A DNA stretch of 41,908 nt from Acidimicrobiia bacterium (lineage in GTDB: Bacteria > Actinomycetota > Acidimicrobiia > IMCC26256 > JAMXLJ01), in assembly GCA_024281095.1 (NCBI GenBank), contig JAMXLJ010000169.1, forward strand, positions 1 through 41,908, written 5' to 3'. The translations under genes and the position numbers were made by a program. Below are positions 6,532 to 10,145 of the stretch, piece by piece (position 1 is the stretch's first letter; every line of letters starts with the position of its first letter). Under the pieces are notes generated by a model. It saw only the letters and a program-made list of their open reading frames with translations. It made no database searches and was not told the DNA's origin.

Positions 6532-7335
6532 ATGGCGCACCACGCGACGCCGACCACCCGAACGGCGTCCATGTTCCACACGGCTGACGACGCCGCGGTC
6601 GCGTTCTACCGCGAGCGAGGCTGGGTCTTGGTGGACACGCTGAACCGCCCCCAGACGGAGGAGCTCCGGCGCTGGGTCGACGAGATCGCCCGGTGGCCTG
6701 ACGGTGAAGGCGAGTGGCTGCATTACCGGGAGATGACCGAGGCGGGCCCGAAGCTCTGCCGCACCGAGAACTTCGTGCCGTTCCACTCCGGTATGCGCGC
6801 GCTGCTGACTGGCGGCGTGATGGCGGACGTGGCAGGGCGGCTGCTCGGCGAGCCGGCGGTGCTCTACAAGGAGAAGGTCAACTACAAGCTCGCGGGCGGC
6901 GCGGGCTATGCAGCACACCAGGACGCGCCGGCCTACCCGTCGGTGCAGGTCCACGCGTCGTGCATGCTCGCGGTCGACGACGTGACGCCCGCGAACGGCT
7001 GTCTCGAAGTGGTCTCGTGCATGCACCATGCGCTGCTGCCGCTCGACGGGCGCGGTTGCATCCCCGCGGACGTCGTCGAGTCGATGTCATGGGAGGCCGT
7101 CGCGGTGCCGGCCGGGGCGACGCTGTGGTTCCACTCCCGCACGCCGCACCGCAGCGGCCCGAACCTGTCATCCCACGACCGTCGCGCGGTCTACCCGACG
7201 TACAACGCGCGCTCGGAAGGTGATCTGCGAGCCGCGTACTACCACCGCAAGCTTGACGAGTTCGCCGGCACCGACGCGCCACACGATCGTGTGCGCGTGT
7301 CGTTGATCGGCGATTTCGAGGGCCGGCCCGTCTGA
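6532..7335 (+). CDS. PhyH-family Fe(II)/2-oxoglutarate dioxygenase, PhnY/TmpA-like
   Basis: The predicted protein is 267 aa from ATG 6532; 6475 is open but overlaps the divergent gene, and ATG 6571 is the other option. It is a double-stranded beta-helix dioxygenase: the iron triad is His129-x-Asp131 (AAHQDAPAY) and distal His206 (TPHRSGPN), with Arg residues just after for 2-oxoglutarate. The stretches LCRTENFVPFH, YKEKVNYKL and the HQDAPAY box resemble the PhnY/TmpA subgroup, which hydroxylates the alpha carbon of 2-aminoethylphosphonate or its N-trimethyl form. That assignment is from remembered family motifs. Its partner would be the convergent HD protein, whose stop codon is one base away. 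Other PhyH proteins act on phytanoyl-CoA or secondary metabolites, so substrate is inferred from context. Confidence 0.8.
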   Translation: MAHHATPTTRTASMFHTADDAAVAFYRERGWVLVDTLNRPQTEELRRWVDEIARWPDGEGEWLHYREMTEAGPKLCRTENFVPFHSGMRALLTGGVMADVAGRLLGEPAVLYKEKVNYKLAGGAGYAAHQDAPAYPSVQVHASCMLAVDDVTPANGCLEVVSCMHHALLPLDGRGCIPADVVESMSWEAVAVPAGATLWFHSRTPHRSGPNLSSHDRRAVYPTYNARSEGDLRAAYYHRKLDEFAGTDAPHDRVRVSLIGDFEGRPV

Positions 7336-7336
7336 C

Positions 7337-7879
7337 CTACTTGCGCGCGCGCAGCGCGTGCAGCGCGCGCAGCCCGGGGATCCACGCGTCGATGCCGGGC
7401 ACGTCCCGGCCAGGTGTCTTCGCGCGGTCGTCGGCGCGACGCAGCTCGACCGCGTCGCGCCAGTGTGGCGACCGGGTCCATGCTGCCATCTCGTGGTCGG
7501 TGAAGGGGCCCCCTTGGAGACCGAGCGTCCGGATGCTGTCGCCCGACAGCTGGGCGCGGTATTCGGGATCCGTCGTGACGAGATACCGCTTCGCCGGCAC
7601 GTGACCTTCCACGAGCGCGCCAACGCGTGAGCCGAGCAACGGCTCGAGCAGTCGCGCACCGACGACGCCGTGCACGTCATCGGCCCCGAAGCGGTGCCCA
7701 ATGTCGTGGACCAGCCCGGCGAGTTGCAGCTGCTCGTCGTGCGGCACCGCGAGACGCAGCTCGAACGCGCACTGGAGGCCGTGGTCGAGGTGGCTGAAGG
7801 CGAGCCCTTCCTCGGACGGCACGTCCGCCGTGGCGACGAGGAAGTCGACGAGGTCGTCGACACTCGCGAGCTCGGTCAT
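7337..7879 (-). CDS. HD-domain mixed-valent diiron oxygenase, PhnZ/TmpB-like
   Basis: The protein is 180 aa; its ATG at 7879 overlaps the upstream gene's TGA (ATGA), so translation is probably coupled. Candidate metal ligands are His33 (LDHGLQ), His58-Asp59 (LVHDIGH), His62 or His70, His93 (EGHVPAKRYL) and Asp150/151 (RADDRAK). Lys97, four residues after His93, matches the spacing of the phosphonate-binding Lys in PhnZ. The motif LQGGPF (121-126) is typical of the phosphonate-operon HDIG group, where the enzyme oxidatively cleaves the C-P bond of an alpha-hydroxyphosphonate to give a carboxylate and phosphate. The PhnZ Tyr-x-x-Glu gate appears to be Glu23/Leu26 here, so the substrate may differ. 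A plain HD phosphohydrolase is the alternative. Confidence 0.75.
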   Translation of the reverse strand: MTELASVDDLVDFLVATADVPSEEGLAFSHLDHGLQCAFELRLAVPHDEQLQLAGLVHDIGHRFGADDVHGVVGARLLEPLLGSRVGALVEGHVPAKRYLVTTDPEYRAQLSGDSIRTLGLQGGPFTDHEMAAWTRSPHWRDAVELRRADDRAKTPGRDVPGIDAWIPGLRALHALRARK

Positions 7880-9324
7880 GAATGTGCCCCGACCCCCGGC
7901 GGACGGCGGCCGATGCCGCCGCATTCCAGCAGCATGCCCGACATCGTGCGGTCCGCGTGCTGCGAACGCCATGTGAGCATCTCCTGCGCGAGCGCGAGCA
8001 CCCGTGCCGCATCCGTGACCTCGGTGCGACCGGTCGGGTCGGCGCCGAAGTCGAAGCAGCGCCACGAGCCGTCGGCGAACTGCACGTACTGGTAGCCGTC
8101 GTTGCGCAGCACGGTGAGATGCTGCCGTTCGGGACGCCGGTCCCACGGCCACGGGTACTCCGCGTGACGCAGGAGCACCTCGCGCCAGTCGTACTCCCAG
8201 TGAGCTGCCGTGCGCCACCACGGCGGCTCGACGCCGTCGAGGAACGGAGTGAGCGGCAGACCGTCGCACTGGGCCGGAACGTCGATGCCGAGCGCGTCGC
8301 ACAACGTCGGGAAGATGTCGACGTTCTCGGTGAACTCGTTCACGACGGTTCCGTGCGCGTGCGGCCGGCTCGGGTCGCGCACGATGCCGAGCACGTGATA
8401 GCTCTGCTCGAACCAGCCGAGCTTCTCGACGAGGCCGTGGTCGCCGAGTTGCTCGCCGTGGTCGGACGTGACGACGACGAACGTGTCGTCCCACTGGCCG
8501 AGCCGGCGCAGCTCGTCGCACACCCGGCCGAGATGGAAGTCGACCTCACTGACCATCCCGTAGTACTGCGCCCGCATCGCGCGCACCTCCGCTTCGGATC
8601 TCGGAGCCGCTGCGGCCGGTACCGAGAGTGCGCCGTCGTGCAGTGGGTGGCGCTGCTGCGCAGGTTCGATCGGGAGCGGAACGTCGTCGGGTGCGTAGCG
8701 CTTGGACCATTCACCCGCCGCCGCGTACGGAGGATGGGGCCGGAGATAGCTCGTGTGCGCGAACCAGCCGGCGTCCTGCCGGCCGACCCAGTCGATGAAA
8801 CGGTCGGTGAGGAAAGCCGAGATGCTCAACTCGACCGGCCGCTCGGGTTCCGTGGCGAGGGCGTGCTCACGGCTCCCGAACGGGCCGTGGCCCAACTCGG
8901 TCAGCCACGCGTGCCAGGCGCGCTCGTGCGCGAGGTCCAGTTCCAGTGCGAACCCTGGGAGGACACCCTCGTAGTCGGAGAGGCGCGGGTCGTCGGGCCC
9001 GTCGGCGTGACGCGGATCGATGCCCTGGTCGGTGTAGCCGAGCAGCGTGGGATCCATGCCGGCGCGACGGGCCGCCCGCGCGACATTGTCGAAACGGGCG
9101 TCGAGCGGCGTGCCGTTCGCGACGACGCGGTTGTTCATCTGGTACGTGCCGGTGTAGAGGCACGCGCGTCCTGGGCTGCACGGAGCGGCTTGGCTGTAGT
9201 GGCGCGCGAGGCGCACGCCGTCGGCCGCGAGCGCGTCGAGATTCGGTGTCTGCACGACGGAGTGTCCGGCCGCGGACAGACAGTCACCACGGAACTGGTC
9301 CAGCGTGACGAGGAGGATGTTCAC
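7876..9324 (-). CDS. Sulfatase-fold hydrolase resembling phosphonate monoester hydrolase (PMH)
   Basis: The protein is 482 aa from GTG 9324, which overlaps the cyclase stop as GTGA; an in-frame GTG at 9342 is possible but lacks a better ribosome site. It belongs to the alkaline phosphatase superfamily: metal-binding Asp9 (TLDQFRGD), the formylglycine sequence Cys49-Ser-Pro-Gly-Arg53, and TSDHGEQLGDH for the other metal ligands. The CxPxR needs a formylglycine-generating enzyme elsewhere in the genome. Blocks such as QMNNRVVANGTPLDARF, LLGYTDQGIDPR, DGLPLTPFL and LTWRSQHADRT recall rhizobial/Burkholderia phosphonate monoester hydrolases, which also cleave phosphodiesters and sulfates. In this operon it could free an aminoalkylphosphonate from a conjugate for the two oxygenases. 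Arylsulfatase or choline-sulfatase-like activity is the alternative. No signal peptide, so cytosolic. Confidence 0.8.
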   Translation of the reverse strand: MNILLVTLDQFRGDCLSAAGHSVVQTPNLDALAADGVRLARHYSQAAPCSPGRACLYTGTYQMNNRVVANGTPLDARFDNVARAARRAGMDPTLLGYTDQGIDPRHADGPDDPRLSDYEGVLPGFALELDLAHERAWHAWLTELGHGPFGSREHALATEPERPVELSISAFLTDRFIDWVGRQDAGWFAHTSYLRPHPPYAAAGEWSKRYAPDDVPLPIEPAQQRHPLHDGALSVPAAAAPRSEAEVRAMRAQYYGMVSEVDFHLGRVCDELRRLGQWDDTFVVVTSDHGEQLGDHGLVEKLGWFEQSYHVLGIVRDPSRPHAHGTVVNEFTENVDIFPTLCDALGIDVPAQCDGLPLTPFLDGVEPPWWRTAAHWEYDWREVLLRHAEYPWPWDRRPERQHLTVLRNDGYQYVQFADGSWRCFDFGADPTGRTEVTDAARVLALAQEMLTWRSQHADRTMSGMLLECGGIGRRPPGVGAHS

Positions 9325-10145
9325 GACCGCGACACCGTGCACACAGCGACGCGCTCGTCGACGCCGCGCAGCGCGCGGAGTCGCGGCCGCCCTATGGACA
9401 GCTGGGGCACGTCGTCAGTGGGGAGCGCGTCGCGCAGCTCGCGGCTGATCAGTACCTCACCGCCCTTGGCCGATTCGGTGACGCGCGCCGCGACGTTGAC
9501 GACGTGCCCCACCACGTCCGCTCCGTCGACGAGCACGTCGCCGACGTGCAGCCCGGCCCGCAGCCGCAGCGGTGGCGGCCCGTCTTCGACCAGCTCGACC
9601 GCGGCCAACACCGCGCCGGCCGGTTCGGGGAAGGTCATGAGCATGCCGTCCCCGAGGTGCTTCAGGACCCGCCCGCCGCGGCCGCGCACCACCCGCCCGG
9701 CGCGCCGGTAGTGGTCACCGAGCAGCGCCGCCGCGGCAAGGTCGCCCTGCCGTGCGGTGTAACGCGTGAAGCCCTCGAGGTCGGTGAACGCGACCGTGAC
9801 GGTGCTGCGCACCTCCGACGGCTCGGAAGCGGTCGTCGCCGCCGACAACAGCTCGACCGCGGAGAGCCCGACCGACGACAGGAACGAGGGGCGGCGATCC
9901 ACGAGCCCTTCGAGCGTGCGCTCGAGCGCCTGGAGCGGCGTCGCGTCGGTGATGGGACCCGCGCCCGGATGGTCCAGCCATTCCTGGCGCATGACCCCCC
10001 GGTCGATCAGGTCCTGCAACATCTCCGGTTCGCGTCGCTTGAGGGCCCCGGCGACCTTCTCCGCCGCGAGCTGACGCATCGCCGCCATGGCGTGCCGACC
10101 GACCTCGCGTGGACGTTCGCTACGAGCCGCCGGCACGCGCGTCAC
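9321..10145 (-). CDS. Class III adenylate/guanylate cyclase
   Basis: The protein is 274 aa from GTG 10145. Residues about 115-270 form a class III cyclase domain with all key residues visible: metal Asp122 (FTDLEGFT), purine-specifying Lys162 and metal Asp166 (LKHLGDG), Asp210 (adenine-type specificity) and the transition-state pair Asn217/Arg221 (VNVAAR). The Lys/Asp pair favours ATP as substrate, giving cAMP. The N-terminal 110 residues are mostly helical and resemble no sensor domain I recognise; there is no membrane segment. It starts 24 bases after the ABC-2 permease stop and overlaps the PMH-like gene by 4 bases (GTGA), so it seems co-translated with phosphonate-type genes, which is unusual. 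Upstream alternative starts are not evident. Confidence 0.88.
   Translation of the reverse strand: MTRVPAARSERPREVGRHAMAAMRQLAAEKVAGALKRREPEMLQDLIDRGVMRQEWLDHPGAGPITDATPLQALERTLEGLVDRRPSFLSSVGLSAVELLSAATTASEPSEVRSTVTVAFTDLEGFTRYTARQGDLAAAALLGDHYRRAGRVVRGRGGRVLKHLGDGMLMTFPEPAGAVLAAVELVEDGPPPLRLRAGLHVGDVLVDGADVVGHVVNVAARVTESAKGGEVLISRELRDALPTDDVPQLSIGRPRLRALRGVDERVAVCTVSRS

Follow-up and report, generated by a model that had tools for sequence, protein, structure and literature searches.

Three adjacent genes of an Acidimicrobiia bacterium probably encode an oxidative phosphonate-scavenging pathway of three steps, which is fed by an ester hydrolase. They lie in a window of 41,908 nucleotides (contig JAMXLJ010000169.1 of assembly GCA_024281095.1) and code for a protein resembling phosphonate monoester hydrolases (PMHs), an oxygenase of the PhyH family and an HD-domain protein with the fold of PhnZ and TmpB. 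A first-pass annotation had proposed a module of PMH, PhnY-type and PhnZ-type enzymes and had named recurrence in other genomes as a check beforehand; the same neighbourhood was indeed seen in many Acidimicrobiia, in differing gene orders. The features concerned are:

6532–7335, plus strand: PhyH-family Fe(II)/2-oxoglutarate oxygenase of the PhnY type; candidate enzyme for alpha-hydroxylation of the freed phosphonate
7337–7879, minus strand: HD-domain protein of 180 aa with the PhnZ/TmpB fold, from the lidless clade; candidate diiron oxygenase for C-P bond cleavage
7876–9324, minus strand: Asp-type PMH-like enzyme of 482 aa, sulfatase fold, GTG start; proposed ester hydrolase
9166–9180, minus strand: CSPGR formylglycine motif of the PMH-like protein; C49 is the equivalent of RlPMH C57
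9321–10145, minus strand: class III adenylate/guanylate cyclase gene (PF00211, 38 bits)

The three genes are genuine and correctly placed, with 6475 and 6571 as other possible starts of the PhyH gene. As already described in the first-pass annotation, the HD and PMH genes overlap by ATGA, and the PhyH gene converges with the HD gene across a gap of 1 base. The cyclase gene had been missed there. Its stop overlaps the PMH start by GTGA, so the PMH and HD genes end a three-gene run; the cyclase gene is possibly co-transcribed with them, any role in the module being putative. An Rfam scan of the window gave no matches, and a scan for promoters and terminators yielded hits at chance level only.

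The sulfatase-fold protein contains a full Asp-type PMH active site, in which the PMH residues D12, Q13, C57, R61, N78, Y105, an Asp at 107, H218, D324, H325 and K337 are kept (residue set from PMC5488252). At the positions used to recognise PMHs (sulfatase family S1_0), which have Tyr at 105 and, at 107, Asp or Thr instead of His (PMC5488252), the window protein carries Tyr and Asp, the latter as in most PMHs. The formylglycine cysteine of the CSPGR motif, noticed before, sits at C57 of RlPMH, and the catalytic set, this Cys and Tyr105 are shared with RlPMH (2VQR), BcPMH (2W8S) and 4UPH. The protein matched 4UPH with 426 bits and the PehA equivalog family NF045661 with 395.7 bits (E 3e-118), below the NCBIfam cut-off of 900 bits; unlike the genes of RlPMH, BcPMH and 4UPH, its gene is coupled to genes for oxidative C-P cleavage. 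PMHs need a formylglycine-generating enzyme, and one is encoded elsewhere in the same genome (G000:C172, 236 bits). No signal peptide is present in the PMH-like protein, so it is probably an intracellular enzyme with a small ester as its substrate, which weakens the earlier suggestion of a lipid or polysaccharide conjugate as substrate. In vitro, PMHs are noted for their catalytic promiscuity, and their physiological substrates are regarded as unsettled.

The PhyH protein matched PF05721 with 76 bits (cut-off 22, E 6e-21) and contains the iron triad H129, D131 and H206 as well as the motifs YKEKVNYKL and HQDAPAY, all as previously annotated. The triad and R217 are invariant across the 40 rows of an alignment of PhyH homologues, and the domain signature of HxD...H plus an Arg for 2-oxoglutarate is thus complete. 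The only strong match to a named family was to methylphosphonate hydroxylase (NF052437; 257.6 bits, E 1.2e-76), under the NCBIfam cut-off of 500 bits. In the tree, the protein falls inside a clade of 36 rows (support 100/100) consisting of PhyH hydroxylases whose genes adjoin canonical, lidded PhnZ genes across Acidimicrobiia. The TmpA label once given to this protein found no support, its only strong named match being methylphosphonate hydroxylase; TmpA belongs to the gamma-butyrobetaine-hydroxylase type rather than to PhyH. Nor is an aminoalkylphosphonate indicated as the substrate of the PhyH protein.

The HD protein contains the motifs HDIGH, AKRY and LQGGPF, as had been reported, and matched the family of phosphonate degradation HD-domain oxygenases (TIGR03276) with 126.5 bits (E 8e-37), below the NCBIfam cut-off of 214.6 bits; a PHROGs search with it gave no matches. 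The impression that all three proteins look like phosphonate enzymes is therefore backed by matches far above chance. Comparing the fold of the HD structure model (pLDDT 92) resulted in Z scores of 24.2 for TmpB, 24.0 for PhnZ, 11.6 for MIOX and less than 10 for all others. The iron ligand set H...HD...H...H...D is complete, with all six residues (H33, H58, D59, H70, H93 and D150) aligning with H34, H58, D59, H80, H104 and D161 of PhnZ, and the equivalents of K108, S126 and R158, which we take to be likely phosphonate-contacting residues, are kept as well. The model thus places the protein in the structural class of PhnZ and TmpB rather than among ordinary phosphohydrolases. The YxxE lid (Y24/E27 in PhnZ) is not matched, the corresponding loop (PSEEGLAFSHLDH) being devoid of Tyr; the lid-Tyr column is occupied by Ser in all ten members of the lidless clade, and a Glu is probably kept. 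In the HD tree, the protein splits from the PhnZ/TmpB clade at 100/99. The designation as PhnZ/TmpB-like consequently stands for fold class and iron ligands, but not for clade membership or for the YxxE tyrosine, which is held to mark PhnZ and TmpB (PMC8177086).

From these features, we infer three activities, their order and a type of substrate. In step 1, the formylglycine-dependent Asp-type PMH, apparently a cytosolic enzyme, would hydrolyse a small phosphonate monoester to a free alkylphosphonate, whose carbon adjacent to phosphorus would be hydroxylated in step 2 by the PhyH Fe(II)/2-oxoglutarate oxygenase. In step 3, the HD protein, presumed to be a diiron enzyme, would oxidatively cleave the C-P bond, producing phosphate and a carboxylate, which would be formate if the phosphonate is methylphosphonate. 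Given this pathway, the chances of an amine-free, methylphosphonate-like substrate fall somewhat short of even, and such a substrate is likelier than aminoethylphosphonate. The first-pass interpretation holds up largely for the module, but not for the TmpA label or the substrate. Esterified phosphonates could become phosphate without methane by this route. In agreement with the first-pass remark that the cluster contains no C-P lyase, a search for PhnJ (PF06007) gave no match in the genome of the window, while the E. coli control matched. Phosphonate biosynthesis was considered but rejected: matches to the PEP_mutase family occurred, but an EDKxxxxxN-type motif was not found in the best of them.

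Of 395 genomes of the class, 11, representing 7 genera, have PMH and PhyH no more than 0.6 kb apart, and the two genes co-occur in 29 genomes versus 6.6 expected and in 16 genera versus 3.3 expected (p 2e-11, a value that ignores deeper phylogeny). A single co-directional run comprises PMH, HD and PhyH in loci L003 and L165/G243 and PMH, PhyH and a lidded HD in L105 and L163, and 4-base gene overlaps occur in L003, L098, L105, L160, L163 and L167. PhyH adjoins the lidless HD in the window, L003, L165, L098 and L167, and is fused to a lidded HD in two Acidimicrobiia genomes. Exactly one TIGR03276-type HD gene, either lidded or lidless, is present in each of the 13 genomes checked, and this alternation beside PhyH is expected of interchangeable step-3 enzymes. 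In the L004 genome, a PMH-HD pair is present and PhyH was not found, and the L005 genome and G057 contain HD without PhyH. A plasmid search for PMH-PhnYZ linkage revealed PhyH-HD pairs on Rhodococcus and Dietzia plasmids with no PMH nearby, and a Rhizobium relative of the PMH has no phosphonate genes nearby. No conserved transporter was present beside the trio among the neighbour genes read; these included SDRs, alpha/beta hydrolases and an aldo-keto reductase, which recur solely among near relatives.

Several points speak against the proposed pathway: the HD protein is devoid of the marker Tyr, all three proteins score below the NCBIfam equivalog cut-offs, no PhyH was found in the L004, L005 and G057 genomes, 23 of 52 PMH genomes lack this PhyH, the window PhyH gene is convergent with the other two, and no phosphonate transporter was recognised adjoining the genes. 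Because the substrates of PMHs include phosphodiesters in addition to phosphonate monoesters (PMC5488252), the PMH could be regulated together with its neighbours without contributing a step to the pathway. The genes would then be clustered via the phosphate starvation response without sharing a substrate, PMH acting on ordinary phosphodiesters and PhyH and HD on free phosphonates. The absence of PhyH from nearly half of the PMH genomes and the location of a related HD clade next to polyphosphate and phosphate-signalling genes fit such co-regulated phosphorus scavenging, but membership of a regulon would not call for linkage as tight as the 4-base overlaps and the co-directional PMH-HD-PhyH runs, and the neighbours read included no further gene recognised as a phosphatase or phosphodiesterase; we consider this explanation unlikely. 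Mere chance adjacency of three unrelated genes in one MAG, to which the convergent and hence not co-transcribed PhyH gene might point, is contradicted by the recurrence in 7 genera with different gene orders and was rejected as practically negligible.

Other doubts concern the HD protein itself. It might act on an already alpha-hydroxylated phosphonate freed by the PMH, such as the hydroxymethylphosphonate present in marine dissolved organic matter (PMC6581173), with PhyH being optional. The genomes with HD but no detected PhyH would agree with this, yet they are MAGs that may be incomplete, and the repeated placement of PhyH beside the lidless HD makes it very unlikely. Even a phosphohydrolase or another non-oxygenase on the PhnZ fold is conceivable from the missing tyrosine, as dinuclear HD hydrolases have a similar ligand set (PMC8177086). 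This appears highly improbable in view of the Z score of 24 to PhnZ/TmpB versus less than 10 for hydrolases, the retained residues likely to contact the phosphonate and the replacement of PhnZ by the lidless HD beside PhyH; moreover, MIOX is also an oxygenase without the YxxE loop (PMC8177086). A further-reaching reading, tentative and less likely than not, is that the lidless HD clade represents a distinct kind of diiron C-P oxygenase controlling O2 access without the tyrosine, while its PMH partner releases the phosphonate from an ester; delivering substrate to oxidative C-P cleavage would then be the native role of this PMH branch. The clade bears on whether C-P oxygenation needs the YxxE tyrosine at all.

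More generally, the fact that PMH genes are repeatedly found physically linked to a gene pair for oxidative C-P cleavage suggests a concrete native role for these little-understood enzymes. In the open-licence literature, we found no paper naming both PMH and PhnZ, or both PhnZ and Acidimicrobia. The cluster resembles the methylphosphonate-oxidizing GmPhnY/GmPhnZ system (Gimesia maris; Prochlorococcus MIT9301) in combining a PhyH-type hydroxylase with an HD diiron oxygenase, but its PhyH protein reaches half of the NF052437 cut-off, its HD protein belongs to a different, Tyr-lidless clade, and a PMH gene is added. With PhnY*/PhnZ (2-aminoethylphosphonate) and TmpB, it has in common the HD fold, six ligands and the likely phosphonate-contacting Lys, Ser and Arg, whereas the clade and the missing YxxE tyrosine set it apart from PhnZ and TmpB. 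A phosphonate monoester hydrolase was proposed to act upstream of C-P lyase in Sulfitobacter, based on genome co-occurrence (PMC5649143); there, too, an esterified phosphonate would be released ahead of C-P cleavage, but the linkage in the window is at the gene level and to an oxidative pathway without PhnJ. Finally, the fungal PhnY-PhnZ fusion PhoF (PMC10574752) follows the same two-enzyme logic, and while the window proteins are encoded by separate genes and the HD is lidless, the PhyH-HD fusions of the two Acidimicrobiia genomes are comparable to it.

The window, a single contig from a 4.39 Mb genome that is 98% complete, carries the following genes:

6532-7335, plus strand, PhyH gene (start uncertain: 6475, 6532 or 6571)
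7337-7879, minus strand, HD gene
7876-9324, minus strand, sulfatase-fold hydrolase gene
9321-10145, minus strand, class III nucleotide-cyclase gene (GTGA overlap with the start of the hydrolase gene)

The first-pass annotation had placed the first three genes at these coordinates and had described their protein motifs, the ATGA overlap between the HD and hydrolase genes and the 1-base convergent gap between the PhyH and HD genes, all of which we confirmed. No cyclase gene was recognised next to phosphonate monoester hydrolase (PMH) genes among the neighbours read in other loci. Profile searches matched the PhyH protein to PF05721 and, with 257.6 bits (cut-off 500), to the methylphosphonate hydroxylase model NF052437. 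The HD protein matched TIGR03276 with 126.5 bits (cut-off 214.6), hydroxymethylphosphonate dioxygenase with 100.6 and TmpB with 88.7, and the hydrolase matched PehA with 395.7 bits (cut-off 900). Because none of the three proteins reaches an equivalog cut-off, these names are leads rather than assignments. By sequence, the PDB entries matched were PhnZ (E 8e-20) and TmpB (E 1e-15) for the HD protein, and 4UPH (426 bits), RlPMH and BcPMH for the hydrolase.

The hydrolase was aligned with RlPMH and 38 further rows (37 of the window's class, one from Rhizobium). Residues D12, C57, R61, N78, Y105, H218, D324, H325 and K337 (RlPMH numbering) are kept in the window protein and all 38 rows, with the formylglycine cysteine C57 corresponding to its C49; Gln13 is replaced by Glu in two rows. 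Position 107 is Asp throughout. Since related arylsulfatases carry Lys and His at positions 105 and 107, and PMHs Tyr and mostly Asp (PMC5488252), the protein is a D-PMH as judged by its active-site residues. It begins right at the catalytic strand (VNILLVTLDQ) and lacks a signal peptide, and is therefore probably cytosolic. The genome contains one gene for a formylglycine-generating enzyme.

An AlphaFold model of the HD protein, built with four sequences (pLDDT 92), was compared by VIA-align with TmpB (Z 24.2, rmsd 2.1, 174 aligned) and PhnZ (Z 24.0, rmsd 2.0, 171 aligned); MIOX was next best (Z 11.6), and all others stayed below 10. All six metal ligands are kept, as are the equivalents of PhnZ H62, K108, S126 and R158. 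In PhnZ and TmpB, the Tyr of a YxxE loop caps Fe2 until substrate binds (PMC8177086), whereas the window protein has PSEEGLAFSHLDH at that place and no Tyr. A tree of 60 HD proteins places most of those encoded beside PhyH genes with PhnZ and TmpB (100/99), and the window protein in the other half, within a group of ten (97/78) whose members all carry Ser in the Tyr column. Members of this lidless group came only from the window's class and one Caulobacteraceae MAG. The closest named relatives of the window protein are from Acidimicrobiales MAGs, on which basis we assign the window to the class Acidimicrobiia. The proposed likeness to PhnZ and TmpB thus held for fold and metal ligands, but not for clade or lid Tyr, and the protein should not be filed as either enzyme.

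A sister HD clade occurs in many genomes of the order (L010-L031, e.g., L046:7104-7631, minus strand, and L045:7784-8311, plus strand) beside SixA-like phosphatase, NUDIX, CYTH-CHAD and response-regulator genes; its proteins retain the diiron ligands and the equivalents of PhnZ K108 and R158 but have lost that of H62. In genome G045, a member of this clade is the only TIGR03276-type HD gene, despite a PhyH gene in the genome. A second HD protein of the window's genome (L002, G000:C72:20096-20218; LTHSLQ...HDIGK...YYAHFGGD) matches TIGR03276 weakly and is unlike PhnZ beyond the first ligands.

The window PhyH protein groups with those encoded next to lidded PhnZ genes (36-row clade, 100/100), and the PhyH genes of locus L003 and genome G243 form a separate clade. 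Across 40 rows there is no variation at the iron ligands, the putative 2-oxoglutarate Arg or the K113/K115/N117/K119 block. A single TIGR03276-type HD gene (E up to 1e-12) is present in each of the 13 genomes checked, and in five genomes whose PhyH gene lacks a lidded HD neighbour (G018, G019, G045, G046 and G047) this gene belongs to the lidless half of the tree; therefore, PhyH proteins of one family seem to work with HD enzymes of both types. Of the indirect evidence, this partner exchange argues most strongly that the PhnZ step is performed by the lidless enzyme. PhyH is naturally fused to a lidded PhnZ-type HD domain in two genomes, G079 (L104, minus strand, 553-aa frame) and G124 (L154, plus strand, 640-aa frame), an architecture shared with fungal PhoF (PMC10574752).

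A search for the same neighbourhood elsewhere recovered PMH-HD-PhyH runs on one strand in L003 and G243 (L165, its PhyH placed by a separate search), PMH-HD pairs in L004 and G046 (L042), and PMH genes beside PhyH and lidded HD genes in L099, L105 and L160-L164. In L098 and L167, a lidless HD gene adjoins PhyH with no PMH adjacent. Neighbouring genes overlap by 4 bases in L003, L098, L105, L160, L163 and L167. Among 395 genomes of the class, PMH occurs in 52, PhyH in 50 and both in 29, versus 6.6 expected (Fisher p 8e-17); by genus, with kinship handled by this collapse only, co-occurrence was 16 versus 3.3 expected (p 2e-11). The two genes are directly adjacent in 11 of these genomes from 7 genera. 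Some genomes do not match the proposed module: the possibly incomplete MAG containing L004 has the PMH-HD pair with no PhyH found, and two others (that of L005 and G057, also possibly incomplete) have HD with no PhyH found. This PhyH is also absent from nearly half of the PMH genomes, and the PMH may therefore have a wider role, e.g., in phosphodiester scavenging.

The most economical reading of gene linkage, residues and fold is that the PMH would hydrolyse a phosphonate ester, the PhyH protein would hydroxylate the product at the alpha position, and the HD protein would cleave the C-P bond oxidatively. Phosphonate oxidation by the module probably proceeds as in PhnY/PhnZ systems, with a hydrolase added at the front and an HD enzyme of the lidless clade. 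The hydroxylase match favours a methylphosphonate-like substrate only weakly, as NCBIfam may contain no PhyH-type phosphonate hydroxylase model other than NF052437. C-P lyase is absent from the window's genome. The idea that a PMH feeds C-P cleavage has a precedent in Sulfitobacter, where the enzyme has been suggested to supply C-P lyase by freeing esterified phosphonates (PMC5649143). We found no report in the open-licence literature of gene-level PMH linkage to an oxidative PhyH-HD pair, and the consulted parts of a 2023 review describe four oxidative versions of phosphonate degradation, none with a PMH (PMC10574752).

On Nostoc plasmid pNsp_b (L143:4989-5549), a phosphonate HD-oxygenase gene lies within a C-P lyase operon directly ahead of phnJ, with a FosA-like gene nearby. 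Rhodococcus and Dietzia plasmids (L139 and L140) share a conserved cassette containing a PhyH-HD pair, a YaaH-type transporter, a cobalamin-independent methionine synthase II-like protein, a second 2OG oxygenase and an RpiR regulator.
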